Source of the DNA: Methylovulum sp.
GTDB lineage: Bacteria > Pseudomonadota > Gammaproteobacteria > Methylococcales > Methylomonadaceae
NCBI GenBank assembly: GCA_030653435.1
Contig: JAURZI010000020.1
Location: 1-56,691, forward strand
Length of the DNA stretch: 56,691 nt
Reading direction: 5' to 3'
The notes under the pieces were generated by a model. That model was not told the origin of the DNA, searched no databases, and was given only the letters and a program-made list of their open reading frames with translations. Below, one piece after another: positions 21,501 through 52,380 of the stretch. Each line of letters begins with the position of its first letter. The first letter of the stretch is position 1. The position numbers were made by a program, and so were the translations under genes.

Positions 21501-21659
21501 CCGGCCGGAAATTATCATCTGTCCTATACCGCACAAGCTATCGCTACGGGCACATTCAGCGCATTACCGGCACAGGCCCAGGAAATGTACGATCCTGACG
21601 TCTATGGCAAGACAGAAGGCATAAATTTTAAGGTTGGCGAGTCAAACGCTACCCACTGA
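15597..21659 (+). CDS. yfhM: Bacterial alpha-2-macroglobulin with thioester (YfhM/ECAM-like)
   Basis: A 2020-aa protein with a signal peptide (cleavage near DAHA). It consists of successive macroglobulin beta domains, a bait-like segment in the middle, and an alpha/alpha thioester domain holding CWEQ at about residues 1506-1509, matching the CxEQ thioester signature. A terminal receptor-like domain follows. The family traps proteases in the periplasm and covalently captures them, protecting the envelope when the wall is breached. It is notably longer than the E. coli protein (about 1650 aa), with an acidic low-complexity insert near residues 765-785 (PDSDNDEDSASKK). It is directly upstream of pbpC, the conserved arrangement that links protease trapping to peptidoglycan repair. 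Confidence 0.9.
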   Translation: MRFIRQILTCVVAHWIFWLAVDAHAVYDSAGISEFKALQVIKITPDGEDVPAGKQIVIQFDRPVVPVGKMERPASEIPVIITPALACEWRWLNTSALACNLPEKAPLKEATHYTLEIEPGIKAEDGATIPDSFHHDFITQRPDVNYHEFREWKSPGYPVIRLVLNQPVDKESVAQHVFWSVGDQAERVAVNVKADSADHEPPQWMPIPGESALLLFNKQPAQKSDDDLHKVQGKEARRIWLVEPVQELPLDTHIMLKTEPGLRSALGTEASVTANPVAELDTYPEFRFLGIKCTTNSGEELRVEAGQAPGGKCDPMQPVDLSFSTPVERDNLGDRLIFNPPVGGWKKASEDATTTAQAPENTDDGAEVGTLFSQAHSKGAIYDVWIPGGLKVAQDYTVQSHQQAAMTFFERLWHWLLSWFKPVAPVAEVQDIFGRKLNQPISASFTTAHRNPNFVMDYTDAVLEKGVESEVPFYVNNLNNYSFNYRGISAKGADKQQIFRKTIPRVQDVQFAVPFGVREMLDGQTGAVFGSLQTEPVVKTYSPILFAQVTPYQVHLKLGHFNSLVWVTDMATGQPVAGAKVSLYQDAFTTLHTVTGITAGASTDDSGLALLPGTDTLDPELSITTRYRDEDQRYFLRVEKNDDMALLPIAQSFTIDAYRASGSEAVYPYNQMRYGHTRAWGTTAQGIYRAGDTIQYKIYVRNQDNNGFMPPPVGVYRLQVIDPMGKAVHDRKNISLSAFGGTGGEFTVPKAGAVGWYQFKLTGDFAKKPENDHEEAVEKKPDSDNDEDSASKKTWLPMRVLVSDFTPSPFRVSNQLNGDLFHAGESVNVATRAELHSGGAYTDAAARITALLESTPFIAKHPLAKNFQFDSYQNETPTQQIFQKIDKVNDKGENNLIFTTGTPKVVYGKLLVESAVADDRGKYISGQARADYLGVDRLVGLYPNEWLYQVGKSGSLQYIVVDDRGNPAKGTAVEIALEHQTTQAARVKGAGNAYLTQYHNEWEAAGHCQGLSEDAPLSCTFTPDKAGVYRAVAKIKDTQGKEHSTTLSTYAVGNDFVVWNNDNDSGLTIVPESTAYKIGDTARYLVKNPYPNAKALITIERYGVIDHFVQTFTSSTPVVEFKIKPDYLPGFYLSVVIVSPRVARPSEPGQVDLGKPTYRMGYVTVPVKDPYKEMRVTAKTDREVYKPRDKVTVKLHAEPRIKDKVEPIELAIAVLDESVFDLIAGGQGYYDPYQGFYTLDSLDLSNYSLLTRLVGRQRFEKKGANPGGDGGANLSMRSLFKFISYWNAELKTDNNGDATISFDAPDNLTGWRILAIAATPTDRFGLGDADFKVNRPTEVRPMMPNQVMEGDHFDAGFSVMNRTDKPRTLEVSMHAEGQLDAAKTPADLTKTVTVEAYKRITVSMPIQTTAVAQTRDTTAGSLRFTITAGDMLDSDGLVHSLPVNKRRSLNVAANYGTTTEDKIDEPIQFPKDMLPDIGSVGVIAAPTVIGNVAGAFKYMRDYPYICWEQKLSKGVMAAHYINLKAYLPDSLPWEGSESLPQTTLEQAAGFQAANGGMTYFVAQDRYVDPYLSAYTAIAFNWLRKSGYTIPEQVENKLHTYLSNLLKNDAVPDFYSEGMTSTVRAVALAALAERGKADLSDMERYRPHVKKMSLFGKSHFLQAALAVKGGEKYAPDVAKMILAGANETSGKFVFSETWDDSYTRILASPLRENCAVLNAFTAYGERESGKHLVGDIPFKLVRAITQSRKNRDHWENTQENMFCMNALIGFARLYEKDKPDMTVTAAMDGVNFGKAVFKDVRDPAVQLERPIKTGDAGRKSLVQIGRVGQGRLYYATRLAYALPTALDNAANAGIEVHREYSVERAGKWELLGSPALIKRGELIRVDLYVSTPAARNFVVVDDAVSGGLEPVNRDLATASEVDAKKGDFTAAGGAFWFKYSDWIDFGTSFWSFYHQEIRHDSVRFYADYLPAGNYHLSYTAQAIATGTFSALPAQAQEMYDPDVYGKTEGINFKVGESNATH

Positions 21660-21669
21660 AGTCTTTGTT

Positions 21670-23868
21670 ATGGCAACTAGACACGATGTAAAGAGAGCCC
21701 TGTACGTGGTCCTTACGCTGCTTGCGCTAATCGTGCTGAAAACAGCGTGGGATGTTGAAACACCCAGCTTATCGTTGCGTACCTCCAATTCCGGTACGCA
21801 GCGTTTTCAGGTCCTGGATCGCCAAGGAAGACCGCTAGGCATTTCTTACCAGAACCGTTTCAACACCATGGCTATCTTACCGTTGCATGCCATACCCGAA
21901 TGCTTAAGACTAGCATTCGTTACCTCCGAAGACAGGCGTTTTTTTGAACATCACGGGGTAAACTGGGCAGCGCGGGTGAATGCTTTATGGCAAAACCTCC
22001 GTGCCGGTAAGGCCGTGCGTGGGGCCAGCACGATTACCGAGCAAGTTGTTCGTATCATCCATCCTCGCCCACGGACGTTTTGGTCACGCTGGCTTGAAGG
22101 CTTCGAGGCGGCATTACTGGAGAGGCATGTCAGCAAAGGCGAACTGCTTGAGTTTTACTTTAATCAAGTGCCTTATGCCGCTAATCGTCGTGGGGTCGCA
22201 CAAGCGGCACGCTATTATTTCAACCGCGATCTGGGCACATTAACCCATAAAGAGATGCTGGCGTTGGCCGTCTTGCCTCGCGCCCCGTCAGCACTCGACC
22301 CCTATAAAAATCCTGATGCCATTGAACCTGCCATGGCAAGATTAGCGCAGGCTATGGTTGATCGTGGCGAATTATCCGTTCAGGAGCGGCAACAACTGGC
22401 AGAGCAAAAAATAGTCCTTGAGCCGCCTCAACCACCTTTAAACGCCAGCCATTTCATCAACTATATCCGTGAAACCATTCCCTATCATGTGAGTGATAAC
22501 GGTGTGCTACTGACCACTCTGGATGGCGGTTTGCAGCATAAGGCGCAAGGTTTGCTCGATGAGCGCATCAAAGCATTAACGCGAAAACAAGTGCGTAATG
22601 GCGCAGTTATGGTCGTGGATCATCGCACAGGCGAAATTCTGGTTTGGGCGGTCGGCGGGGCAGGTAATGACTTCACCAACAACGCAACCCCAGGCGGAGC
22701 TATTGATGCCGTGCGGATGCCGCGCCAACCGGGTTCGTCACTAAAACCGTTCTTGTATGCGCTGGCGCTTGACGCTGGGTGGTCGCCGGCAACAGAGTTA
22801 AATGATGTTCCTATGGCTGAGGCCATAGGCTCAGGTCTGCATGCTTTCCACAATTACAGTCATTTGTTTTACGGCAAAATTTCCTTGCGGGAAGCGCTCG
22901 GCAACTCGCTCAATATTCCGGCATTGCAAACGATTGCTTTTGTCACGCCAACACGCTATCTGGATACGCTACATGCGCTGGGCTTTACCAGCCTGATGCA
23001 GCCCGTTGAGTTTTATAAGGAAGGCCTTGCGCTGGGCAATGGCGAAGTGACGCTATTCGAAATGGTGCAAGCCTATAGCGTCTTGGCAAATCGCGGCCTA
23101 TTCCGGCCTCTCACACCGTTGCCACGCCCACACTTCATGCGTGAAAACAACCGTGTCTATTCGCAGGAAGCCGCCTCGCTGATTGCCGATATCCTCTCCG
23201 ACCCGTTTGCCCGCAGACGTGAATTCGGTGCAGAGAGTGTGCTTAACCTTCCCGTTCAAACCGCAGTAAAAACGGGGACATCGACCGATTATCACGATGC
23301 CTGGGTGCTGGGTTTTAATTCGCACTACACGGTAGGTGTGTGGTTCGGCAATTTGGACCGAACGCCGATGGACGGGATTACCGGATCTACCGGCCCTGCG
23401 TTGGTACTACACAGCCTATTTGCGGAGCTTGCCGGACGGGAAAAACTTAAGCCGCTGTATTTAAGCCCTAAATTAGTGCGGCAAGACATATGCACTGATT
23501 ATGACCAAGCTGTCGGAAAAAATAACTGTTTTACGCGCACGGAATATTTCATCATCGGCAGCGAACCGCATCCTGAACAATATGCACAGCTCTCAAACCA
23601 CCTTGAGCTGCTCAGACCAACCCAAGGCCTGCAAATTGCCTACGACCCACGGATTCCTGCCAATGTGCAAGCCTTCGAATTTGTTACAGATGGTCTAACG
23701 GCAGGCCGCAAAGTTGAGTGGCTACTCAATGGCAAGCCCATCGCCACAACACAAACCGGTCATTTCTTGTGGCCTATTAAACCAGGACATTATTCCCTAC
23801 AAGCAAAAGAAATAGGTGATAAGGAAAAAACGCTTGCTTCCGATGCCGTTCTTTTTAGTGTGAAGTAA
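21670..23868 (+). CDS. pbpC: Penicillin-binding protein 1C
   Basis: A protein of about 732 aa. The ATG at 21670 is preferred over an in-frame TTG at 21634, because the latter would overlap the upstream gene. One N-terminal membrane anchor (ALYVVLTLLALIVL) is followed by a GT51 transglycosylase domain (EDRRFFEHHGVNW, GASTITEQVVRI). The transpeptidase domain has the SxxK box (SSLK in PGSSLKPF), SxN (SLN in GNSLNIP) and KTG (VKTGTS). The C-terminal BiPBP_C-type domain (DGLTAGRKVEWLLNGKPIATT) completes the PBP1C architecture. It lies 10 nt after the alpha-2-macroglobulin gene and is probably co-transcribed with it. Confidence 0.93.
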   Translation: MATRHDVKRALYVVLTLLALIVLKTAWDVETPSLSLRTSNSGTQRFQVLDRQGRPLGISYQNRFNTMAILPLHAIPECLRLAFVTSEDRRFFEHHGVNWAARVNALWQNLRAGKAVRGASTITEQVVRIIHPRPRTFWSRWLEGFEAALLERHVSKGELLEFYFNQVPYAANRRGVAQAARYYFNRDLGTLTHKEMLALAVLPRAPSALDPYKNPDAIEPAMARLAQAMVDRGELSVQERQQLAEQKIVLEPPQPPLNASHFINYIRETIPYHVSDNGVLLTTLDGGLQHKAQGLLDERIKALTRKQVRNGAVMVVDHRTGEILVWAVGGAGNDFTNNATPGGAIDAVRMPRQPGSSLKPFLYALALDAGWSPATELNDVPMAEAIGSGLHAFHNYSHLFYGKISLREALGNSLNIPALQTIAFVTPTRYLDTLHALGFTSLMQPVEFYKEGLALGNGEVTLFEMVQAYSVLANRGLFRPLTPLPRPHFMRENNRVYSQEAASLIADILSDPFARRREFGAESVLNLPVQTAVKTGTSTDYHDAWVLGFNSHYTVGVWFGNLDRTPMDGITGSTGPALVLHSLFAELAGREKLKPLYLSPKLVRQDICTDYDQAVGKNNCFTRTEYFIIGSEPHPEQYAQLSNHLELLRPTQGLQIAYDPRIPANVQAFEFVTDGLTAGRKVEWLLNGKPIATTQTGHFLWPIKPGHYSLQAKEIGDKEKTLASDAVLFSVK

Positions 23869-38926: not shown

Positions 38927-40369
38927 TTAAGTCCAAGAAAAATCAGCAGTAGTCAAGTTAGCTAAGCTGACGCCTGTCAACATAATTGACATGTCTGTCG
39001 TAGCATCACCATTAACATCGATTTCCAAAAGTCCAATTGAAGTACCGGTATCATAAAACCGAGCCTGTGAATTTCCGGCTCCGGCCCACTCGGCAACAGC
39101 AGTAGTACTCGTGTCTGTTGCACGATCTTGGGTAAGCATGGCAAACGTCCCCGACAGCCCAGTAAATTTCAGGGTGTCCACGATTCCAACACCTGAAGCA
39201 GCACCAGTACCGGCCTCAAAATTGGTTATCGTATCGCGCGTAGCCGATGATGTACCCGAATCGGTTTTCAAAGCATAGCTGAAAGTATCCGCTCCTGTAG
39301 CACCCGTAAGAGTATCGGCGCCGCCGTTACCTCTAATGGTGGTACCGGTCGAAGCCGCCGCTAATGCGATAATGTCGCTCGAACTGGAGCCTATTATTTG
39401 GTCAGCGCCACCGCCCGAAGTAATGGATACATTCGATGCCGCAGTTAGCGTTACGGTATCAGCAGTCGAACCTAACGTCAGCGTGTCGGCGTTGGTCGTA
39501 CCATTACTGTTGTATTTCAGGTTGACCGCGGCGCTAGAGAGCGTGAGGGTGTCAGACGCGGTGGTGCCGGTAATCGTATCGATGCCGGTGCCGCCACCCG
39601 TCGCATAAATCAGCCCCGTAGTGCCAGAGCCCAATTTAATGCTGTCAGCGCCAGTAGAACCGGTGATGGTATCGGTACCGCCGCCATTATTGTAGGTAAA
39701 GGAAGAAGCCGCAGAAAGGGTAATTTTGTCTACTCCACCATCGCCGGTAAGTGTATCGGTGCCACCACCGCTTTTATACATCCAAAAAGCATCGACAGGC
39801 GTAGTTTCAGCAAGCCCATCGCTTAGGGTAATAATGTCGTTGCCAGATGAACCGATTAATATGTCGGTAGCAGCCGTTGTGCTATCGGATACAAGTATGA
39901 TTTTAGACGCGGCAGTCAGGGTTATAGTGTCGCTCACAAGCGTTGCAGGACCCACAGGAGTCGCTATGGTGAGGGTGTCGGCTGCTGTAATGCTGCCACT
40001 GCTGAATTTGATGTTAACACTTTTAACAGTGCCCGTGTTGCTCAGGGTAATGCTTTCTGATGCAGCGGCTCCAAACAACGTGTCGACCGTAGCGGCCAAC
40101 GTATTTTTGGTATCAAAAGCAATGGTCGCTACTGCAGCAATAGCAACGCTCTCGCCAAATGTGCTCAATGTTTGGGCGGCCGTCAATGCGCCAAGCAATT
40201 TGATGCTGTCTCCCAGAGTGGAGCCGGTGATGTTGTTAACCCCGGCGACAGAAAGGGTTCCTGCGGTAAGCAGGGTTATAGCGGTCGTGCCTGAACCAGC
40301 GAACGAAGTCGCGTCTATACGGTAAGTACCGCCACCTGAAGCAGGATCTGTAAACTTAAACTTTGACAT
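38927..40369 (-). CDS. RTX-like repeat protein, probably secreted by a type I route
   Basis: A 480-aa protein, extremely Ser/Thr/Gly/Ala-rich and almost free of charge except Asp, without cysteine and without an N-terminal signal peptide. Imperfect RTX-type units recur (GGGTDTLTGDGGVDKITL, GGGTDTITGSTGADSIKL, NGGADTLTGATGADTF). The C-terminal 100 residues (TITNFEAGTGAAS ... LEIDVNGDATTDMSIMLTGV) resemble the beta-roll end and secretion region of serralysin-type proteins. The N-terminal half lacks clean nonapeptides and may be an S-layer-like or adhesin module. A ribosome-binding site (AAGG) precedes the ATG. The pilin gene is 97 nt upstream on the same strand. No ABC/HlyD set is adjacent. Confidence 0.75.
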   Translation of the reverse strand: MSKFKFTDPASGGGTYRIDATSFAGSGTTAITLLTAGTLSVAGVNNITGSTLGDSIKLLGALTAAQTLSTFGESVAIAAVATIAFDTKNTLAATVDTLFGAAASESITLSNTGTVKSVNIKFSSGSITAADTLTIATPVGPATLVSDTITLTAASKIILVSDSTTAATDILIGSSGNDIITLSDGLAETTPVDAFWMYKSGGGTDTLTGDGGVDKITLSAASSFTYNNGGGTDTITGSTGADSIKLGSGTTGLIYATGGGTGIDTITGTTASDTLTLSSAAVNLKYNSNGTTNADTLTLGSTADTVTLTAASNVSITSGGGADQIIGSSSSDIIALAAASTGTTIRGNGGADTLTGATGADTFSYALKTDSGTSSATRDTITNFEAGTGAASGVGIVDTLKFTGLSGTFAMLTQDRATDTSTTAVAEWAGAGNSQARFYDTGTSIGLLEIDVNGDATTDMSIMLTGVSLANLTTADFSWT

Positions 40370-40466: not shown

Positions 40467-40997
40467 TTAACGGCATTCAGCTGGTGCATATTTAGCTGGC
40501 AACGTACCGGCAGACCCAACCGTCAGGCCACGATTACCTGCTGTAGCAGCAGTATCAGATGAGCAAGCCCAATCAACCGCGCCTGTTGCACCCGCAACAA
40601 TAAGCTGATTATTCACATTCGGGGTAAATACTATCGTCTTGCTTTGGGCATCGGTCGGCAAACCACCTGCCGCTGCCGTAGTCACCGTAATGTCATAGGG
40701 TGAGCCAACAGTAATTTGTATATCACTTACAAACTTGGATGTTTTCTCAGATTGCTGCTTGGCGTTATAGCCAGTTATAAATGCGTCTACTCCATCCACG
40801 CTATCCGATTGAAAGGCTTCACTAAGCCCTGCTTTAACCGCATCGCCCGCAACGATGGCTTCAGTAATTTTCGCACGTACCGTGTAATCCTGATAAGCCG
40901 GAATAGCAATGGCCGCTAATATACCGATGATCGCAACAACGATCATTAACTCGATTAAGGTAAAACCTTGTTGTACTTTTTGCATTTGATTTTTCAT
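40467..40997 (-). CDS. Type IV major pilin-like protein (PilA family)
   Basis: A 176-aa protein from the ATG with an AGGAAA ribosome-binding site; the upstream in-frame extension is not used. The prepilin leader [11 protein letters not shown] is followed by [37 protein letters not shown], with Glu5 of the mature protein. The variable beta region has a C-terminal cysteine pair (WACSSDT ... APAECR) forming the D-loop. It polymerises into type IV pili after PilD cleavage and N-methylation. No other pil gene is in the window. Confidence 0.9.
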
Positions 40998-41045
40998 GGA
41001 ATGTTTCCTATTTTTTTGATGGGATTTAACTTCACGAACTCTAAA

Positions 41046-41060
41046 GCAGGATATGTGCCA
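41046..41060 (-). promoter_or_regulatory. Sigma54 (RpoN) promoter for the pilin gene
   Basis: On the minus strand TGGCAC-N5-CTGC matches the -24/-12 consensus TGGCAC-N5-TTGC except for one base. It is about 50 nt upstream of the pilin ATG. Type IV pilin genes are classically RpoN/PilR-dependent, which supports it. The rest of the 40998-41413 region, upstream of both the pilin and the coiled-coil gene, shows no other gene. Confidence 0.7.
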
Positions 41061-41413
41061 TGGCGTTATACCCGGTACGGTATTTTCAGTGTTCGTTAAG
41101 CGTTTGTAGCCTCGCCACATCAGCGATAACAAGATGCGGGGTTTGTTTTCCCGGTGTTGTTGCTTGCCGTAGCTTCTGTTTTTCGGCTGGAGCAGGACTG
41201 TGTTATAAACCCGCCAAGCTTGCTGTACTTGCTGAAACAGCCGTCCAGGCACTTTACGTTAGCTCAGGTAATAACTCATTTTGTCGGAATGTGACAAAAA
41301 GGGTCAATACATCCGCCTGTTTTTCGCCCATGCCGCCCATCCAAATCCCCGGTCATTATGCTATAGTTGTCAGCATATACTTACAGCGTTGTTATGCGGC
41401 ATGAGGTTAGGCT

Positions 41414-42186: not shown

Positions 42187-45100
42187 GTGAATAACAAAAG
42201 CTTTCCTCTGCGTATTGTCGGACAATTCAATAAGGACAATACCACTTGGCGTGGCCGTCGCGGCATCGGCGCCGTTGTTGCCAGGGGTATGTATCGTTTC
42301 GGGTGCAACGCCTGCGAGGAGATGCAGGTCAGCGTTGTTGACGATGCCGACCGCAGGGTCGCCATTACCGCACAAGTTTGCCAAAGCTCGCTGCAACTGA
42401 TGTTTTCCCGCTTCACGATCGACCCGGCATTCGGCGGCCTATTGAAAAAGTTGGCCGAATGCGAGCTGGCTGTTGTTTTTATCGAAGGTCATGAGCGTCT
42501 GCTGGAGTTGGATAGCGACGCCAATATCCTTACGGTTGCCTGCGATCTGGCTATCCCGCTCGGTTATTCCGCTTGTCTGGATTTCGCTCAGAAAACAGCA
42601 GATCAGCAAGCCTTCGAACACTTGCTGGCGCTAGGACACTACTATCTATTGCTGTGTTGGCAGGGCTGGACTGAGCGTCAGGCCTTAGCCAAAGTTGTCG
42701 AAGGCTATGCCTCGTTGTTAAAAACCGAACGAGCCTGTTTGCATAGCCTATTGGAAGGCAACCTACTGGATAGCGGCAATTTGTTTTCGATGTTTCTGAA
42801 ACGGGCGGCATTTGACCGCACCGGCGGTATCGAAATCAGTCGGCAACAGGTCTGGCTGGATCAACAGATGACTTGGTTGTTCGGACAAGATCGTATCGAT
42901 CTGCCTTATCCGCGTCAGGCTGCATTGGATATTCTGCAAGGCGAAGCCGATGTGGACGGACAACGTACACAGCTTTATCAGTTGCTGCGCGGCTATGATA
43001 GGTCTTTGGAGAGCGGTAATATCGAACGCATTGCCACCGAAGTTCGCGCAGCCCGCCAACAACTGATTTTCGGGCGCATGAGCCGCGCCTTCCACAATCA
43101 GGCGACCTTGTTTGCCAATGCGGTGCTGTTGCAACCTGGCGCGGCTTGGCGACAACTGGCCGCTGAGCTGTCCTCGCAGACGGTGGGTGTGCCTGAGTTG
43201 CATGCCAGTGCCGGGGCTTTGGCGCTGTTGCTGGCCAGCTCCGGGGAAATCCCGCTGACAACGTTGGAAGGCGCTTGCGAGCGCTTTGAAGATGCGGTCC
43301 TCGACGAACAGAAAAAGGCTTTATCGGACGCGCTTGTCGACTCCCGTTCACGGGTGGAAAACTATAACGACCCGCTGGTCGGCCAATACGAAGTTGCTGC
43401 CCCGCATGCAGACATCATGGTACGGGCAGGGCAGGGCTTGCGTTTGGTTGACCGCATACGCGAGGAATTTCTGGGCGCGGCTAAACGTCATGCCGCTTAT
43501 GTTGTCATCAGCCAGCGGCCTTCGCCTACCGGCTCTCATCTACTCATTAAAATCAACGAGTTCCAGGATCCGTATTCAGGCAAGGCAGAAAACTTGCGTA
43601 AGCTGGTCAGGTTAGCCGGAGACCGTATCTACAGCAGCCCGGACTACGGCTGGCTGGCAGTCGCCGACCACTGGATAGAAGCCATCCCGCTGTTCATCAA
43701 GGAAGAAGTCCTGGTGCAAGACGGGCAGGAAAGCACCCGCACGGTCATCGACATTTCCGGCATGGAAGTCTCTTTCCGCGAGGAAATGGCGGACCTATGG
43801 GCCGTTAATCTGCGCCAGGTTCTGGATAGCGAGTTGCATTGCTTGGCCAGGGAATATGTGGCTGGCGAAAAACTTACCGGTTTCGACGAAGTATCCGATG
43901 CAGATGATATCGCCGCCGTGGCTGTGTTGCTGGGCGACAGATATCGCAGGGAGATTAACCAAGTCCAAAAATTGATTGAAGCCGAAGAGCTTGCACCTTT
44001 CGATGCCATGCGGCAAATCCTGCTGGGCGACCCGATATTGCGGCAGCTTGCTGAACACCAGCAAGGCACCGGCTCCTGGCCGGCATCGGTCAGGCAGCTC
44101 ATCCAAGTTATAAACTTCGACACGGAAGTTTTCCGGCTCAAGCCCCACGCTCTGAAGCCGCGCCGTGCATTGCCAACGCTGCATGTCCTGACGACCCAAT
44201 CTGCCGGCATGACCGAAGGTTATATCCGTACTTGGCTGGAAGAGTCGATGGCCTTGTTCAATATCGCCGAAGACCTAGGTCTGCACGACAAAATAACGGA
44301 GCGCGAGGCGTTTTTCATATCCCGTATCCTCGCCTTGGGCGAGAAATTGATCCGCGAGCTGGGCGTCTGGATAGAGGTCGAGGAATTGTGCGCCAATGAG
44401 CAGATTCCGCAAACCGCCGCCATACTGAGGCTTATCAACAGGAACCGTTTGTTACAGCAGGAATTATCCTGCCTGGGTGCGTTGCTGGAGTTCGAGGAGA
44501 TACAGCAAGGCAGGAAAAAGGCCGAAGATTGCGGCGAGCCTAAAGTCGTTGAGGACTATCTGACCCTGCATGCCGAAGCGTTGCAGGAGGCTGCGCTGAT
44601 CGAGGTGATTGCGCGCAACCGCACAACCTTGATTAGCCGGATGGGCGGGGGCGGTTCCGATGAAGCACTGCGGCGCACCGTACTGGACGATGAATATTAC
44701 CGTCAAGACTTAGAGGCCTACACGCGCTTGGTAGCCCGCCGCCGGGTGCTGGAAGGCTTGAATGCCGGGCATCCGCAACAGCAGCTTAACGAGTGCTGCG
44801 AAACCTATCTGCGTCGCTTCCAGCAATTACGTAAAACGACGGCTAGAAAAGAGATTATTGCCGAACACGGCTTGAATCACCTGACGCTGAGTCCGCAGTA
44901 TTATTTTCAGGCCAGCGGCGGCGGTAAGCGTTACCATTTGATTTACACGCCCAGTCGCGTGGATTTGGGGCAACGCGAGCGCGAATCGGTGGAAACCTGG
45001 TCGCAATGGGTGGGCGGCGCCGACCGGGCGGCCGCACAAACGGGACGGCAGATTTATAGCCTGATTAACAAAGACGTCCGGTGTTTTGACAGCTTGACCG

Positions 45101-48100
45101 AACCCGAAATATTGAAAACCGGTGAAAATGCCTCGATGGCGTCGCATTTCGGTTTTTCGAATGCCTTGAGCATGATGGTCACGGCGTCCGCACACGGCGA
45201 TTTCGAGGCCATGGCGGATTTGATGAACCGGCGTCGCGACCGCCTGATTCACCCGGCCGGCGAAGGTTACGGCGGCTATTGCGTCCCCAAGGATGGGCTG
45301 TTCCTTGAATTCGTGCTGACTTTGAATTGCGCGGAAAAACTAAGCCAGATGGGTTTGCCCGCAGCTTATCATAGTGCCGTCGTCGCGTTGGCTAATGCTT
45401 TGCTCGACCGCAAGCCGGAGTTTGGCGGCCAACTGGAGTGGGAAGCCTGGGCCGCGAGCCAATTGCAAGGTCAAGATGGTCTGAAACCCTATTTCACGGT
45501 CAGCAGCGGCCTGCCGGTGTTCCAGATTACCCGTATCGCGCATGTTCTGGAGCATCTGGGCAAACCGCAATTACGTGACCCGTATCGGGTTGCCGCCAGC
45601 CTGGCCGCAGGTTGGGGATTGCACAAGATGGTGACCGGCGGCGAGCAAGTCAACCGTTTCATGCCGTTTTTCAAATCCTGGTTGATCCGTCAGGGTGTCT
45701 GTGAAGCGGCCCGCCGTCATGCCGATTTGCCTATCCGCGTCGAAAATTGCGTCGTGGTGCTGACTGCCGAATATAAACCCGACACCCAGGACGCCCGTTT
45801 TGCCACCGGCCTGCGTAAGTTTGAGATTCTTGCGGGTACAGGCAGCCATCTGCTTAATGCGCTGGATCTGGATGGCCGGATTATTGCCGTGTTGATGAAT
45901 GAAGGTTTCGAAGGCTTGCAACAACGCGGTTGGGATGGCCGGATTAGGGACATGCTGGCTATCAGCGCGGATGACAGCAAGGCAGACGGACAGTTGCGCG
46001 GTTTGTTCCCTGCATCCAGGCTGCCCGCCGAAATCCGCATGGTTTCGCCGACCGGATTATCCACCCAGGACTTGCTCAATTACACCAGCGACACCCAACT
46101 TGAAGCCATTGCCGACGAAACACACAGGGAGCTGTTGGCATTGGGGCTGACGGCCAAGGAAATCGAAGCCAATTTACGAACCTGGGGCGCCAGACTTGGT
46201 CATTGGGCTAGTCGCCAACCGCCCAGCACGGGGCTGCTGGAGCGCATGGGCGGACGCATCCATGTGCTGGCGTTAGCGGTGCTAGGCCCCGAACGCCGCT
46301 ATGAATACGCCGTCCAGGGCGCGGACGTGATCGACACCGGGATTCCTCATCGCAGCCTACGCGATCTTCTGGCTGACCCCGCCCGACTGTGTAGGTTGAT
46401 GCTCGAAGGCAACCCGAACAGCGCGCTGGTCATCGTCGATGGTGCTGCCGGGGCGCGGCATCGTGCGATGAACCGTGGCGATGTCATGCGTTGGTTTGCC
46501 GCAGCTGAACAGTTGGGCCGGGAGTCCGTTTATCTGAGCGTGGGCATGGGGCAACAAACCATCGAAGCCTGGCGGTCGGATATGCGGCGCAGGCGGAGGC
46601 GGGCCGAGCGGTTGTTGCAGAGCTTAACCGGCGATGACCCAGGGTTAGCCCACCAGGTTTACGGACGAATTATCGACGAGATACGCCAGGACCAGGAAAT
46701 CCAGTCGGCCTTGAGCGAAACCGATAAACTGGACCGTTTTGGTCGGGGCTGCGAAAGCGACCGGGTGCTGGTCGATGCCTTGGGGCGCATCGGCAGCGGT
46801 GTCGCGTTGAAAGATCTGGGCTTTGTCGACTTCCTGGCTTTGGGCGGCCTGTACTTGTTGATGGGTGCAACAGAGGAAGACGTCCGTGCCGCGATGGCAT
46901 CTTTTGCTACGGCCATCACCCGTTTGGGAGGCTACAGCAGCCGCACTGATGAACGGGTGCTTGGGCTGTTGTTGCCTACGCATCAGCGGATGAGCGTAGC
47001 GGAGTTCCGTGAGGAAAAAGGCGTCGAAAGTTCCAACAAGGCGATGGAAGAAAGGGCGACAGTTGCGCTGGAAACGCGCCGCCAGTTAGCTGCCCGTGTC
47101 GCCCAGGCCCGTGCGCTGAACCAGCGGCAAACCGGTTTCGCTGCGGTACTGGACGATACCGGCGACTTCATCAGCCTGTACCGCAAAGCCATTGCGGTAC
47201 TCGGTAACGGTGGGCAGCCTGTGACCGAGGAACATTTCGGTGCTTTCCTTAAATATACCCATAATGCGTTGACGGCGCTGGCCAGGGATTTCCAAAGCGT
47301 AGTACATCCAGAGGAAACACAAGGCATGCTTGCACGCCTGGAGCAACTGTTTTCAGGCCGACAACTCGACGAGCAAATCTACCACCGTATCGCCGGCGGC
47401 TACGAGGACATCGGCGACTTCGGCCGTTTGGCCCAACAAATCAGTGAGCAAGCCCAACAAGGGAAAATAGACGCTGTCGCCAAAGAACAGGGACTGCGTT
47501 GCGTCGCCCAAGGGGCCGAACTGTTCTATATCCTGTTGGCGGTCGAAACGACGATAGCGTACACCCATCAAGAGCCGTCCACGTTTGATGCCATGTCGCT
47601 ATGGCGGGCCCTGTCCGGTTTTTTCGCCAAGACGCTCAACGACCACAGTTATGAATATCGTCCCTGGGTTTATAGCCGAGGCACCGGTTACGCCGATTAT
47701 CAAGGCGAACGGCTATACCGTTTCGCAGTGGAACGCCACCAGTGGCTGTACGGCTATCTGCGCCATGTGGTTACCCATTATACCGATCTCAGGGAGCTGA
47801 CCGGCCCGGAGCAGGATATGCTGCTGGGCAATTATCTGGATGGCATGGAAATAGAAGCAATAGGCGCGGGTGCCGATGGACAGGTGGAAAAGATCTGGCG
47901 TGCTTACGGTCAATTGCGTGAATTGGCGTTTATCCGTAACGACGGCTTCGCAATCCCGGTGGTTTTCGCCGAATTCGATCCTGATCTCATCCATGATCGG
48001 GCACGGGTCAACCATGTCATCGCCGTTCCCGTCGGGCGCACCCATTTTTCGCGCGTGCTCTGCGAAGGCCCCAGTTTGGCACGGCAATTGGAGCAGGAAG

Positions 48101-49596
48101 GTCGGCGCGGCGGAAATCTCATTATTACGCGGAACATCGGCATCATGGCAAAACCGGACGGTCAGCGTCCAGTAGCCCTTATCACCAGCGGGCATTTTTA
48201 TCTGGATGCAGCAAGCTACGCAGAGGCTTTGGTAAGATATAAAGGCTGCTCCCGACCGGAAGCCGCGCGTTTGTCGGCCAGCGTGGCCCCTAAAGGCATA
48301 CGGGTGGCCGCGCACTTTACCCGTCCGGTGCTCGCCGCGCTGGTTTATCCTTTTCATGGCGATCCTGTGTACGACCAGGGGAAACTTGAAGCCTGCGGTC
48401 TGCCCTATACGGTACAGTCGCTGTTCCATACCTGGACGACCTATGATAAAGCCAAGTACCGGGATATTTTTCGCGGCAGCGGCGTGGATATGCCCGATGA
48501 AATCGACTGGCTGACCGATGACACCGCGCGCAGCCAGGAAAAAGCAGTGGTCAAAAACTGGATAAGTAACGGGCTGCCCGAAAGCGCTTATCCGGGTCTG
48601 CGCGCGTTTGCCCAATGTCATCCTTTGGTCATGATTAAGGATGCCGCCGAATCCGGCGGCCGCAATGCGGGCGCTTTTCTGTTGGTGCGGCCGGACGGCA
48701 GTCTGGATTCGGAACAAATGGAGTCGGCTGTTGACTTTATCTATCAAATTTCGCTGAAACACCATGTTTGTATCCAGGAAGTGATCCTGAGTTCGCCAGA
48801 ACACTGGGCCACCGAGGCGTTCATGCAGGCCTTTGTGCATCGGCAAATCGTCGAATGGGGCAGCGCCGTGAACCGTCAACGCCAGCCTTACACCCCCATC
48901 TTCGGCTCGCACCGTATCATCCTGTCCACGGACAAGCCGGGCGGGACGACTGGCTCAACAGAGTGGCATATCTCCCACTGGATCACGCTTAACAGCAAGC
49001 AACTGATCACCAATGTGGGCAGAGGCGGGACGCTCGAACAGTTGTTGCCGGAAACCATACGACCCGAACATCGGGACGCTATCCTTGGCAAACTGGCCGA
49101 AGCCGGTAGGCGCGTCATGGAAGCTATGGCTCGCTACGAGGCGCATAGCGCATCCTTATATACCGCTGAAACCGGCCGAACCGTGGGCGCCGATCTGATG
49201 GGCGTTTCCTACGGCATGCCCCGCTACTTGATGCTGGATTTCCTGATCGCCCCGGTGTTCGGGCAGGACGGTGTGTTGGTCGAAATTGAACCGATTTTCG
49301 ATGATAACGGCTGCCGTATAGGTTCGCGCTTTATACTGCAACACGGCAGCCGCCGTTTTCCGGGCAATATAGTCGATTGGCACATAGTGTTGATAGAGCC
49401 GAATATCGGTGTGGGTTTATGGGATCGCGTGGCTTTGCGCGAGGAATACCACGAGCTTGAGCGGGCTCGTAGCGCAGGTGTCAGCCCCGACTGGGAGCGC
49501 ATCGGCGAAAACGCCAGGGTCGTACTCAGCGATTTAAACCGCGCCGGAGAGGATTACCTTAACGCGCTTAATGCTGACCATGTCTTGCTTTCCTGA
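42187..49596 (+). CDS. Giant (2469-aa) protein with C-terminal ATP-grasp-like domain; function unknown
   Basis: A GTG start with no strong ribosome-binding site. No signal peptide or membrane segments are seen, so it is probably cytoplasmic. Most of the protein is helical and of unknown family. Near residues 1025-1036 it has GEGYGGYCVPKD, resembling the catalytic GxGFGGSCxPKD signature of UDP-sugar dehydrogenases, but the surrounding sequence does not obviously match that family. The C-terminal 400 residues look like an ATP-grasp fold: DKAKYRDIFRGSGVDMPDEIDWL, HPLVMIKDAAESGGRNAG (about 2145-2162), VEIEPIFDDNG (about 2365-2375) and a metal-site-like IEPN (about 2403). The next gene overlaps its 3' end by 26 nt and is also ATP-grasp-like, and a sugar kinase follows. 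A large enzyme or scaffold in a small-molecule pathway is the best inference. Confidence 0.85.
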   Translation: MNNKSFPLRIVGQFNKDNTTWRGRRGIGAVVARGMYRFGCNACEEMQVSVVDDADRRVAITAQVCQSSLQLMFSRFTIDPAFGGLLKKLAECELAVVFIEGHERLLELDSDANILTVACDLAIPLGYSACLDFAQKTADQQAFEHLLALGHYYLLLCWQGWTERQALAKVVEGYASLLKTERACLHSLLEGNLLDSGNLFSMFLKRAAFDRTGGIEISRQQVWLDQQMTWLFGQDRIDLPYPRQAALDILQGEADVDGQRTQLYQLLRGYDRSLESGNIERIATEVRAARQQLIFGRMSRAFHNQATLFANAVLLQPGAAWRQLAAELSSQTVGVPELHASAGALALLLASSGEIPLTTLEGACERFEDAVLDEQKKALSDALVDSRSRVENYNDPLVGQYEVAAPHADIMVRAGQGLRLVDRIREEFLGAAKRHAAYVVISQRPSPTGSHLLIKINEFQDPYSGKAENLRKLVRLAGDRIYSSPDYGWLAVADHWIEAIPLFIKEEVLVQDGQESTRTVIDISGMEVSFREEMADLWAVNLRQVLDSELHCLAREYVAGEKLTGFDEVSDADDIAAVAVLLGDRYRREINQVQKLIEAEELAPFDAMRQILLGDPILRQLAEHQQGTGSWPASVRQLIQVINFDTEVFRLKPHALKPRRALPTLHVLTTQSAGMTEGYIRTWLEESMALFNIAEDLGLHDKITEREAFFISRILALGEKLIRELGVWIEVEELCANEQIPQTAAILRLINRNRLLQQELSCLGALLEFEEIQQGRKKAEDCGEPKVVEDYLTLHAEALQEAALIEVIARNRTTLISRMGGGGSDEALRRTVLDDEYYRQDLEAYTRLVARRRVLEGLNAGHPQQQLNECCETYLRRFQQLRKTTARKEIIAEHGLNHLTLSPQYYFQASGGGKRYHLIYTPSRVDLGQRERESVETWSQWVGGADRAAAQTGRQIYSLINKDVRCFDSLTEPEILKTGENASMASHFGFSNALSMMVTASAHGDFEAMADLMNRRRDRLIHPAGEGYGGYCVPKDGLFLEFVLTLNCAEKLSQMGLPAAYHSAVVALANALLDRKPEFGGQLEWEAWAASQLQGQDGLKPYFTVSSGLPVFQITRIAHVLEHLGKPQLRDPYRVAASLAAGWGLHKMVTGGEQVNRFMPFFKSWLIRQGVCEAARRHADLPIRVENCVVVLTAEYKPDTQDARFATGLRKFEILAGTGSHLLNALDLDGRIIAVLMNEGFEGLQQRGWDGRIRDMLAISADDSKADGQLRGLFPASRLPAEIRMVSPTGLSTQDLLNYTSDTQLEAIADETHRELLALGLTAKEIEANLRTWGARLGHWASRQPPSTGLLERMGGRIHVLALAVLGPERRYEYAVQGADVIDTGIPHRSLRDLLADPARLCRLMLEGNPNSALVIVDGAAGARHRAMNRGDVMRWFAAAEQLGRESVYLSVGMGQQTIEAWRSDMRRRRRRAERLLQSLTGDDPGLAHQVYGRIIDEIRQDQEIQSALSETDKLDRFGRGCESDRVLVDALGRIGSGVALKDLGFVDFLALGGLYLLMGATEEDVRAAMASFATAITRLGGYSSRTDERVLGLLLPTHQRMSVAEFREEKGVESSNKAMEERATVALETRRQLAARVAQARALNQRQTGFAAVLDDTGDFISLYRKAIAVLGNGGQPVTEEHFGAFLKYTHNALTALARDFQSVVHPEETQGMLARLEQLFSGRQLDEQIYHRIAGGYEDIGDFGRLAQQISEQAQQGKIDAVAKEQGLRCVAQGAELFYILLAVETTIAYTHQEPSTFDAMSLWRALSGFFAKTLNDHSYEYRPWVYSRGTGYADYQGERLYRFAVERHQWLYGYLRHVVTHYTDLRELTGPEQDMLLGNYLDGMEIEAIGAGADGQVEKIWRAYGQLRELAFIRNDGFAIPVVFAEFDPDLIHDRARVNHVIAVPVGRTHFSRVLCEGPSLARQLEQEGRRGGNLIITRNIGIMAKPDGQRPVALITSGHFYLDAASYAEALVRYKGCSRPEAARLSASVAPKGIRVAAHFTRPVLAALVYPFHGDPVYDQGKLEACGLPYTVQSLFHTWTTYDKAKYRDIFRGSGVDMPDEIDWLTDDTARSQEKAVVKNWISNGLPESAYPGLRAFAQCHPLVMIKDAAESGGRNAGAFLLVRPDGSLDSEQMESAVDFIYQISLKHHVCIQEVILSSPEHWATEAFMQAFVHRQIVEWGSAVNRQRQPYTPIFGSHRIILSTDKPGGTTGSTEWHISHWITLNSKQLITNVGRGGTLEQLLPETIRPEHRDAILGKLAEAGRRVMEAMARYEAHSASLYTAETGRTVGADLMGVSYGMPRYLMLDFLIAPVFGQDGVLVEIEPIFDDNGCRIGSRFILQHGSRRFPGNIVDWHIVLIEPNIGVGLWDRVALREEYHELERARSAGVSPDWERIGENARVVLSDLNRAGEDYLNALNADHVLLS

Positions 49597-51088
49597 TACC
49601 GATCAGAGCCAAAGAGCCTGCCGCCGGACCTGGAATGCGCTAGGCATGAGAGACAATTCACCTTTAAGCGTCGATGAAGCCTGTGTTTTCGTCAAATATC
49701 TGTTGCTGGAAGGACTGGAAAACGGTGAAATCCGCTATTGGCGTGTGCGTTGGCAAACCGATGCCGGTATGGCACTGCGTCGGCGACTGGAAGCGCTGCT
49801 AACCACCCTGCTTGGCTCTAACGGACTTACGGCTAAGCCGTGGATTGAATGGAAATCCCTAGTCAGGCCTTGGCTTGCTTCTGCAAGCTACCGGCGACGC
49901 CTCATTGATCTGGCGCTGGAAGCCGTGCTCAGCGAACCCTTAGCCCCAGAACTCTGCATTAGATTAGCCGCTTCATCACGGCATGAACTCTCGTCAGCGC
50001 TGCCCGGGGAGTGGAACCATGTCGTGGTGTTTGCCTCCCCCGTATTCTTCACCCATGAATTCTACCCGCTGGCCGTCGATGCCTGTGTGCATGATTCCGA
50101 ACACTTTGGCAATCCACGAACCAATGTGCTGGCTGCACATATCGACTGGCTTGCTGACAATGGACAACTAAAACGTATCCTTTACCTGGATTTCAGTTTG
50201 GGGCGGTTCATCGAAACGGAGCTGGACATCCCCATGCGGTCGGACAGCGTCCAGTTCCTCTGTATGGGTAGCCAGGAGCGGGAATCCCATGCGCTGATGG
50301 CGCAGCGTTTTGAATGCGTACAAGTCAACCCGGCCTCGGTATCCAGGCTGGCTGATGACAAAGCCGCTACGCTGGCCGCTTGGTCGGCCTTGGGATTGGA
50401 CGTGCCCGTTTATCAAGAAATTGTCCCCGGAGATTTGGCGACGGCGTATTGCTTTCTGGACAACTTTGCAGAAATCGTCGTTAAACCCAATCAGGCCACC
50501 GAAGGGGAGCATGTGGCTTTCTTCCGGCGCGACCAAGCGCATGCCAGGCAGGAATTGGCGCGCCATCTTGAATGTTGCTGGGCGCAGGGGGCCGCCATCG
50601 CCCAGCAACGCCGCGACGGCGTCAGCTTTCGGAATCCGGTTTCCGGTGCCGGCCACAGCTTGGCGTTACGCCTGAATCTTGCCTTCGATGGCGCGCGCCA
50701 TTGTTTGGAATCCGGTTATGCACAATTGGGGCTGGACGGGCGGCATCCCGCCGCATGTGGACGCGGAGGCCATATCGTCGCTGTCGATGTGGCGCTGTCC
50801 GGCCTGGTTTGCGGGGGTAAGCCGATCCGTCTTGATTCGGGGGACTGGAACAGGATACGTGCACAGGCCGAGTGTGCTGCCGGCCTGTTCGACGGTTTGC
50901 TGTTGATGGGTTTGGACGTGCTGCTCGACCAAGACCTACACGGCAACATAACACCCGTGTTTCTGGAAGCCAACCCGCGACCGGCGGGCTTAAGCCATTC
51001 CAGGTTCTTGACGGACGATCCCCTTACGCCAGCCCAGATTGGCGTCAGCCTCAAATTATGGGACGGCATATACCCAGTTGCATCATGA
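49571..51088 (+). CDS. ATP-grasp-fold ligase-like protein
   Basis: A 505-aa protein starting inside the 3' end of the giant gene (an alternative ATG is at 49580). The N-terminal 250 residues are unrecognised. The C-terminal half carries ATP-grasp features: DKAATLAAWSALGLDVPVYQE (about 262-282), the ATP-binding lysine region EIVVKPNQATEGEHV (about 302-316) and the metal-binding FLEANPRPAGLSH (about 464-476), with Glu and Asn as in carboxylate-amine ligases. ATP-grasp ligases activate a carboxylate as acyl phosphate and join it to an amine or thiol. Substrate unknown. Overlap with the giant gene implies coupled expression and likely a shared pathway. Confidence 0.8.
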   Translation: MLTMSCFPDTDQSQRACRRTWNALGMRDNSPLSVDEACVFVKYLLLEGLENGEIRYWRVRWQTDAGMALRRRLEALLTTLLGSNGLTAKPWIEWKSLVRPWLASASYRRRLIDLALEAVLSEPLAPELCIRLAASSRHELSSALPGEWNHVVVFASPVFFTHEFYPLAVDACVHDSEHFGNPRTNVLAAHIDWLADNGQLKRILYLDFSLGRFIETELDIPMRSDSVQFLCMGSQERESHALMAQRFECVQVNPASVSRLADDKAATLAAWSALGLDVPVYQEIVPGDLATAYCFLDNFAEIVVKPNQATEGEHVAFFRRDQAHARQELARHLECCWAQGAAIAQQRRDGVSFRNPVSGAGHSLALRLNLAFDGARHCLESGYAQLGLDGRHPAACGRGGHIVAVDVALSGLVCGGKPIRLDSGDWNRIRAQAECAAGLFDGLLLMGLDVLLDQDLHGNITPVFLEANPRPAGLSHSRFLTDDPLTPAQIGVSLKLWDGIYPVAS

Positions 51089-51205
51089 TTCATCCCGACA
51101 TGGTTAGAATAGCGGTCATCCGGGTCGCCTTCCGGGTACGATCCAAAGAATTTTTCTCAAAACCGATGTGATTTTCTGCTGCAAATGACTAAATGCCTAT
51201 TGGGT

Positions 51206-51285
51206 GTAGGGCGTGCCGCGCGCGCCACACGAAGGGAGTTTTAGCATTGATGTTATTCCACAAGGGCGCGCGCGGCACGCCCTAC
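51206..51285. repeat. GC-rich inverted repeat sharing the MITE core
   Basis: GTAGGGCGTGCCGCGCGCGCC (51206-51226) pairs with GGGCGCGCGCGGCACGCCCTAC (51264-51285) around a loop of about 37 nt. The sequence GTAGGGCG...GCCGCGCGCGCC is the same core found inside MITE copies 1, 2 and 4, so this may be a further relative without the ends. It lies between the ATP-grasp gene and the kinase gene. Confidence 0.65.
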
Positions 51286-51363
51286 GGCGTTGAGTTTAAG
51301 CCGCAGTTTTAATCAACCGAGTTAAGCAGCAACACGGTTCAATATTCGACAAAGGAGCTCATC

Positions 51364-52380
51364 ATGTCTATCGTAAGCCGTGCATATCCGCGTGCAGCAC
51401 TGGTCGGCAATCCCTCTGATGGCTACTTCGGTAAGACTATCGCGTTGGTGTTCGGCAATTTTCGGGCAGAGCTCAGTCTTTGGGAATCGCCTATGCTGGA
51501 AATTTTGCCTTGCGACATTGATAAACCGGTGTTCGCCTCGATGGCGCAGCTGGTCGAGCATATTCACAACCACGGTTACTATGGCGGCATTCGCCTGCTC
51601 AAGGCAGCCATCAAGTGTTTTTTTGAATATTGCACAGCGGCAGCAATTCCGCTAGATCATCGAAACTTCACGCTCCGTTACGACACGACTATTCCGCAGC
51701 GTCTGGGCCTGGCCGGTTCCAGCGCGATTATCACCGCGTGTATGCGGGGGCTTATGCAGTTTTATGGCGTCGCCATCCCGAAACCGCAGTTGGCGAACCT
51801 CATCCTCTCCGTTGAAAAGGATGAGTTACAGATCGGTGCAGGGCTTCAGGATCGCGTGGCGCAGGTATACCAGGGGCTGGTTTACATGGACTTCGACAGG
51901 GCCATCATGGGTAAGCAAGGCTACGGCAACTATGTGCCCCTTGACATAGGGTTATTGCCGAAGCTTTACATAGCCTACCGCACCGATTTGGCTGAGGGTT
52001 CGGAAACCACCCACAATGACCTTAGTGAACGCTACCAGTGCGGTGATGTTGACGTGCATGAGGCCATGGCGCAGTGTGCGGGTTTGGCGGTGCAGGTGAA
52101 GGCGTTGCTCGAAGCAGGCAACGGGACTGAAATCGCCGGATTGATTAACCGCAATTTCGATTTGAGAAAAACTGTTTTACGAATCAGCCCTGGCAACCTG
52201 CACATGGTTGAGGCTGCCAGGAGCGTGGGCGCAAGCGCAAACTTTACCGGTTCGGGCGGGGCTATAATCGGAACCTATACGGATGATGCGATGTACGAAT
52301 GCTTGGCAACGACGCTATCGACTATCGGCGTCAACATCATCAAACCTGAAATCGTCCCTATGTGTGGTGATGAGTGTTAG
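51364..52380 (+). CDS. GHMP-family sugar kinase, glucuronokinase-like
   Basis: A 338-aa protein with a strong ribosome-binding site (AAGGAG, 51352-51357). The N-terminus YPRAALVGNPSDGYFGKTIALVFGNF closely resembles the start of plant glucuronokinases. The GHMP ATP loop is PQRLGLAGSSAI (about 111-122) and the C-terminal motif is GASANFTGSGGAIIG (about 290-304). The family phosphorylates sugars at O-1 or related positions. It is about 275 nt after the ATP-grasp gene and on the same strand, so it probably belongs to the same functional unit. Sugar substrate is not proven. Confidence 0.8.
   Translation: MSIVSRAYPRAALVGNPSDGYFGKTIALVFGNFRAELSLWESPMLEILPCDIDKPVFASMAQLVEHIHNHGYYGGIRLLKAAIKCFFEYCTAAAIPLDHRNFTLRYDTTIPQRLGLAGSSAIITACMRGLMQFYGVAIPKPQLANLILSVEKDELQIGAGLQDRVAQVYQGLVYMDFDRAIMGKQGYGNYVPLDIGLLPKLYIAYRTDLAEGSETTHNDLSERYQCGDVDVHEAMAQCAGLAVQVKALLEAGNGTEIAGLINRNFDLRKTVLRISPGNLHMVEAARSVGASANFTGSGGAIIGTYTDDAMYECLATTLSTIGVNIIKPEIVPMCGDEC

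Follow-up and report, generated by a model that had tools for sequence, protein, structure and literature searches.

What does a methanotroph make with a protein of 2469 residues whose gene runs into that of an ATP-grasp-like protein and is followed by a GHMP kinase gene? The three genes lie in 56,691 nucleotides of DNA from Methylovulum sp. (contig JAURZI010000020.1, assembly GCA_030653435.1), the whole of which is called the window here, and their products are referred to as the giant, the partner, and the kinase. A preliminary description of the window proposed a biosynthetic system that activates a sugar and ligates it with ATP, and all three open reading frames (ORFs) were found at the coordinates and on the strand it gave. 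The domain-by-domain search of the giant that it recommended revealed a feature it had missed, the core of a nucleoside diphosphate (NDP)-sugar dehydrogenase. At the level of sequence, this core and the GalU-like genes beside some relatives are the best support for a sugar-directed system. The proposal is upheld in that respect, but the kinase is not an obligate member. Very probably, the system works on a sugar nucleotide and uses ATP for ligation.

The central dehydrogenase domain, at about residues 913-1042, is the one thing that Pfam and NCBIfam recognize in the giant. TIGR03026 matched with 57.1 bits (E 1.3e-15), which does not reach its curated whole-protein cut-off of 189.8, and PF00984 matched all 20 giants scanned. 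Comparison by hhalign with a profile of 22 dehydrogenase rows from Methylococcales, two of them repeats, gave a probability of 96% at residues 942-1067. When a C-terminal dehydrogenase profile was placed on the whole giant, its best places were 1187-1219 (E 0.008) and 1371-1382 (E 0.056), each weak by itself and both in the correct order after the central domain. According to PMC4794789, 18 residues are invariant across the NDP-sugar dehydrogenase family, and 12 of these fall in the part of the giant that aligns. The equivalents of Pro140, Glu201, Lys204, Asn208, Gly257, Gly258, Cys260, Asn287, and Lys320 are kept in 29/29 giants, and those of Asn219 and Asp264 in 25/29, the four most distant members having Leu and Glu instead. 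The spacing within the central domain is also retained. From the catalytic Cys to the Lys320 equivalent there are 165 residues in the giant against 61 in an ordinary dehydrogenase, and from that Lys to the GAD block 181 against 58; inserts of about 100 and 120 residues therefore break up the aligned core. Unlike the NDP-sugar dehydrogenases that it resembles in its central domain, UDP (uridine diphosphate)-binding motifs, and catalytic Cys, Lys, and Asn, this core sits in a 2469-residue chain with an ATP-grasp-like end.

Cys1032 is the sole cysteine of the window giant conserved in 27/27 members. According to PMC3184952, the equivalent Cys276 of human UDP-glucose dehydrogenase carries the thiohemiacetal and thioester intermediates, Lys220 stabilizes them, and Asp280 activates water. 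Group-specific residues described in Table 3 of PMC4794789 gave mixed signals, with Arg924 as in UDP-N-acetylmannosamine dehydrogenases and Tyr1031 and Lys1035 as in UDP-glucose dehydrogenases, and the attempt to read a substrate from them was abandoned with none assigned. The same genome encodes two ordinary members of the dehydrogenase family elsewhere, so it has other candidates for NDP-sugar oxidation besides the giant.

The half of the dehydrogenase that would bind nicotinamide adenine dinucleotide (NAD+) was sought in the remaining sequence. Equivalents of Gly7, Gly9, Gly12, and Thr83 were not found in the giant, and a candidate counterpart of Ser117-Thr118 was picked by eye at Thr669-Thr670, a pair kept in 29/29 giants and lacking profile support. 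The GxGxxG at 1893 of the window giant was rejected as an NAD+ motif, being present in 8/27 members. An NAD+ domain at 430-700 looked plausible by eye, but its joined candidate blocks scored 74.9 against a median of 75.2 for 200 random draws, and it was retained solely as a rival reading. Given the residues retained and the failed tests for an NAD+ domain, the giant is therefore, as far as its sequence can be aligned, a protein that keeps the sugar-nucleotide half of a dehydrogenase site and has no recognizable cofactor half.

The preliminary description placed an ATP-grasp-like domain at the C terminus of the giant and a second ATP-grasp protein in the partner. In the giant, K2151 is kept in 28/28 and N2276, D2351, E2404, and N2406 in 27/27 of the members reaching those positions, a set that we take to be the Lys, Asp, Glu, and Asn pattern of ATP-grasp ATP/Mg sites. 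The best Foldseek matches of this C terminus are biotin carboxylases (E 0.16 and 0.20); the domain is thus backed by a conserved residue pattern, but no profile cut-off was passed and the fold matches are weak. Similarly, the window partner gave weak ATP-grasp matches under the cut-offs (17.3 bits; cut-off 31.4), whereas its relative in locus L034 passes PF14397 (34.0 bits; cut-off 31.4). The likeness to ATP-grasp ligases (the sugar-transfer-associated PF14397, the RimK family, and the biotin carboxylase fold) therefore lies in the presumed residue pattern of both proteins and in that relative, and the difference is that the giant and partner of the window are below all family cut-offs or unmatched. 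The profiles of the giant C terminus and the partner do not align, and the idea of a common-origin pair was dropped. The remainder of the giant is largely helical in structure models, and the weak Foldseek matches of its N-terminal half include nucleotide-sugar dehydrogenases.

The giant belongs to a family of its own. It is encoded at 26 loci in named genomes, 23 of which match almost the entire query with best-segment identities of 50-75%, a recurrence showing that the ORFs are more than chance. Hosts are Methylococcaceae and records labeled Latescibacterota, Handelsmanbacteria, Gemmatimonadetes, and others. Eight of the loci outside the methanotrophs belong to one phylum of the genome set, called Latescibacterota-type here, an inferred label taken from the record titles of three of the eight. 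That phylum also holds distant giants near 34% identity, and complete giants in the loci read there span 2,346-2,687 residues. Within the genus Methylovulum, 4/20 genomes have the gene, and Methylovulum miyakonense HT12 carries giant, partner, and kinase genes alike. Because they are cut, interrupted, partial, or redundant, seven loci (L023, L024, L025, L035, L037, L038, and L042) stand outside the 20-row alignment A2; alignments A3 or A4 contain intact stretches of all of them except L038. The partial L119 and L120 were excluded from the 27-row residue counts, and in A6 the tail of row L043 is unlike the others. At L037 (10001-17458) and L048 (1477-8934), the giant gene is broken by one TAG into ORFs of 1041 and 1432 codons, which may be a read error or a recent loss.

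Across most of its length, the giant matched no characterized family in Pfam, NCBIfam, or the other libraries compared, in agreement with the preliminary description, for which such a match would have undone the proposal. Neither Pfam, NCBIfam, nor PADLOC holds a dedicated model of the family, and no solved relative was found by sequence beyond the dehydrogenase-core domain. Viral contigs, searched with two peptide patterns, and plasmids contained no relatives of the giant, and a virus or plasmid origin was accordingly rejected. An anti-phage defense system was also rejected: PADLOC gave one weak BrxE match to the giant (14 bits, E 0.008) and zero matches for the partner and the kinase. The remark that no named pathway could be recognized has likewise stood, as no described counterpart was found in the libraries and open-license literature searched, where titles and the starts of abstracts held no description of a module of giant, partner, and kinase. 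Clustering placed genes for a PAS sensor kinase and a sigma-54 response regulator upstream of the giant at seven loci (L024, L027, L029, L033, L034, L041, and L044), in some with an HDOD protein as well; the L034 proteins alone were scanned. These genes may control the giant or merely reflect synteny, and they were dropped as candidate module members, none having been seen beside the giant in methanotroph loci.

Co-occurrence was examined in 315 genomes from two lineages, 251 Methylococcales and 64 of the Latescibacterota type. Among the Methylococcales, 14 genomes have the giant, and these same genomes have the partner, scoring at least 487 bits; weaker matches to the partner (26-33 bits) in three further genomes were counted as other ATP-grasp proteins. 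In the Latescibacterota-type genomes, the giant was found in 20, the partner in 20, and both in 19, with G268 showing the giant alone and G269 the partner alone. Overall, both genes occurred in 33 genomes, one alone in 2, and neither in 280. For the preliminary description, a failure of the three genes to co-occur elsewhere would have undone the proposal. This did not come about as stated: giant and partner are together in 33/35 genomes having either, and the kinase is a less constant companion. Fisher tests of the association gave 3e-23 and 4e-14, values weakened because related genomes are not independent. The giant and partner lie on different contigs in 9/33 genomes (G256-G260, G270-G272, and G319), and for the seven of these other than G270 and G319, flanking sequence shows that the two are not neighbors. 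Retention of both genes when they lie apart is a better argument for their pairing than the Fisher tests. Distances among giants and among partners correlate at 0.73 over 24 pairs. With the giant tree rooted, by assumption, on its most divergent members, the methanotroph giants group in a single clade (support 1.0) nested within the other lineage, which suggests one transfer.

The kinase proved more variable. As the preliminary description stated, the window has a GHMP kinase gene downstream on the same strand, and its product matches PF00288 with 46.1 bits (cut-off 22.3); among solved structures, heptose-phosphate and mevalonate kinases are closest to it. In the Latescibacterota type, the gene next downstream of the partner encodes a GHMP kinase in 17 of the 19 genomes with both giant and partner, also where these two lie apart. 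By profile, 14 of these 17 kinases form one FKP-kinase-like family, in which two weak matches (G283 and G274) were not counted; the four members that were scanned align with the kinase part of the FKP model, well short of its whole-protein cut-off. The other three are galactokinase-like, also below that cut-off, and accompany the most distant giants. Methylococcales use a third GHMP family, that of the window, found in 8/251 genomes, seven of which belong to the 14 that have the giant. These seven include a fragment with two stops (G110), a gene split over two contigs (G074), and a kinase on another contig than the giant (G100). Two side observations concern these kinase genes: at L149 (5223-6248), a window-family kinase of 78% identity lies on a short contig of G011, a genome in which neither giant nor partner was detected, and at L095, L096, L097, and L122 a gene of about 180 codons follows the FKP-like kinase, that of L122 (4373-4921) encoding a YacP-like NYN protein.

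In the window and at L020, L021, and L028, the gene immediately after the partner is a window-family kinase; at L043 and, as a fragment, at L022, this kinase gene comes after a GalU-like gene. The GalU-like gene comes after the partner at L022, L030, L031, and L043, at L030 and L031 without a kinase; its product at L043 scores 326.3 bits against a cut-off of 326.8. L025 and L045 have too little flank for either gene to be judged. In the zebrafish glucuronokinase/pyrophosphorylase, as described in PMC3938481, a bacterial-type nucleotidyltransferase domain precedes the kinase, and the order of a GalU-like gene before a GHMP gene at L043 and L150 is alike when gene order is compared with domain order. 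The four Latescibacterota-type kinases that match the kinase end of FKP offer a similar likeness. Unlike bifunctional sugar-1-kinase/pyrophosphorylases, the functions are here in separate genes, tied to two ATP-grasp proteins.

The arrangement of the genes and of the domains within the giant is collected below.

Genes of the locus and putative domains of the giant, with positions in the window
Feature	Residues	Position	Strand	Remarks
Giant gene		42187-49596	+	ORF with GTG start, 2469 codons; near-full-length conservation in 23/26 named loci
Central NDP-sugar dehydrogenase domain	913-1046	44923-45324	+	K977, N981, C1032, D1036; TIGR03026, PF00984, hhalign
Cys1032 codon	1032	45280-45282	+	Equivalent of the dehydrogenase catalytic Cys; 29/29 giants
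UDP-binding part	1150-1230	45634-45876	+	N1156, K1197, R1204, each 29/29; best C-domain profile place; second matching stretch
Candidate last C-domain block (QGAD)	1371-1395	46297-46371	+	Second C-domain profile place; G1378, D1380 27/27
ATP-grasp-like domain of the giant	2034-2420	48286-49446	+	Conserved residues; weak biotin carboxylase fold matches
Partner gene, ATP-grasp-like		49580-51088	+	Start 49571 (505 residues) as first called; 49580 preferred
GHMP kinase gene		51364-52380	+	338 residues; PF00288 above cut-off; linked to the partner in relatives

The kinase gene starts 275 nt past the partner stop codon. An overlap of 26 nt between the giant and partner genes had been reported; this figure results from taking the first ATG and is correct on that basis, but the preferred start gives 17 nt. 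Thirteen methanotroph loci show the partner, and in all ten that were checked an in-frame partner start gives an overlap of exactly 17 nt; L030 and L040, judged as called, have giant and partner without overlap, and L025 was left out. In the window, this start is 49580, which is preferred and is probably the true one. In two Latescibacterota-type loci, the overlap is 4 nt. Elsewhere in the window, a 2020-residue alpha-2-macroglobulin gene overlaps a penicillin-binding-protein gene (15597-23868), a common gene pair. A type IV pilin ORF (40467-41252) has its methylation motif from residue 92, so that its true start is probably internal, and a 480-residue protein encoded on the minus strand (38927-40369) has repeats like those of RTX/serralysin C termini.

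Taken together, these observations can be arranged as a pathway, and we give about even chances both to an undescribed route of sugar activation followed by ligation of the activated product and, separately, to the order of steps proposed here. The GHMP kinase would phosphorylate a free sugar, probably at C1 to judge from the kinase families, and a nucleotidyltransferase of GalU type, whose gene is next to the kinase gene in some relatives and lies elsewhere in others, would then make the NDP-sugar. The giant would bind this NDP-sugar in its dehydrogenase-derived site, where the residues are in place and Cys1032 is predicted to attack or hold C6 of the sugar. Because the NAD+ half is not recognizable, this step would be either an oxidation through a very diverged NAD+ domain or non-oxidative. 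Finally, the ATP-grasp domain of the giant and the partner would activate a carboxylate, that of a uronate made at the site or of an amino acid, and link it with an amine or some other nucleophile to yield a sugar or uronate conjugate. A uronate may arise at the thiol site rather than enter as the starting sugar, and the predicted bond would be of amide type or another ligation. ATP-grasp enzymes of the nikkomycin/polyoxin type couple a uronic acid with an amino acid, and the likeness, compared by description only, is in the proposed ATP-driven ligation of a uronic acid.

Several observations weigh against this pathway and the history proposed for it. Within the giant, the Glu141 equivalent is Ser923 in 29/29 members, the N-terminal dehydrogenase profile has no sensible place that would mark an NAD+ half, and no conserved GxGxxG occurs outside the active-site loop in 27 giants. 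None of the ATP-grasp families in Pfam matches the giant C terminus in any of 20 members. The models of the giant are middling (predicted local distance difference test [pLDDT] scores of 74.5 and 71.1) and poor at about 971-1040 of the dehydrogenase core (pLDDT 31-40), and Foldseek returned no match to them at E ≤ 0.001. On the genomic side, no kinase follows the partner in G283 and G284, 7/14 Methylococcales giant genomes lack the kinase family of the window, and the flanks of L026, L037, and L040 have neither a window-type kinase nor a GalU-like gene. Conversely, nine Latescibacterota-type genomes have an FKP-like kinase without the giant, and G011 has the window's kinase family without it. 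The partner tree contains no single methanotroph clade, with weak support at the relevant nodes.

Some of these points have led us to consider other explanations. The giant could be a complete, very diverged NDP-sugar dehydrogenase, its NAD+ domain lying in 430-700 and broken by inserts, that converts an NDP-sugar to an NDP-uronate for ligation by the ATP-grasp parts. A possible strand order seen by eye, the position of Thr669-Thr670, and a recognized core that is already interrupted by inserts all speak for it, but the candidate blocks score like random draws and match no profile, and the loss of Glu141 and the absence of a conserved GxGxxG tell against it; we consider it doubtful. The loss of Glu141, with the unrecognizable cofactor half and the helical, unassigned character of much of the giant, would suit a non-catalytic sensor or scaffold in which an NDP-sugar controls the ATP-grasp ligation as a signal rather than a substrate. 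Such a role is distinctly unlikely in view of the catalytic Cys, Lys, and Asn, present in all 29 giants down to about 34% identity, and of the repeated linkage to sugar kinases. A product of amino-acid or peptide type, with the kinase and GalU-like genes as neighbors belonging to another pathway, would account for a kinase that is dispensable in half of the Methylococcales giant genomes and also found without the giant. We judge it highly improbable, since kinases of differing GHMP families directly follow the partner in 17 of the 19 Latescibacterota-type genomes with giant and partner, and the giant itself has an NDP-sugar-type site.

Within the preferred reading, a sugar-nucleotide system that ligates with ATP, the giant might found a new class of nucleotide-sugar enzyme. 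Its dehydrogenase-derived thiol site, either lacking NAD+ or having a remodeled cofactor site, would keep an NDP-sugar covalently bound at C6 and pass this adduct to the ATP-grasp ligases of its own chain and of the partner instead of releasing it by hydrolysis, and methanotrophs would have acquired the system from the Latescibacterota lineage. This combination of claims is unlikely to hold in full; if true, activation and ligation would merge into one assembly-line step.

To judge from their sequences, the building blocks are of known kinds, and the libraries and literature searched yielded no description of their combination or of most of the giant. Two bacterial lineages far from each other conserve the family, of about 2,350-2,690 residues, almost end to end, the same partner nearly always accompanies it, and one chain may combine nucleotide-sugar oxidation with a predicted ATP-grasp ligation. 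Cys1032 offers a direct test of the proposed chemistry, and once the product is identified, a pathway could be named for methanotrophs and for a phylum that metagenome assemblies represent here.

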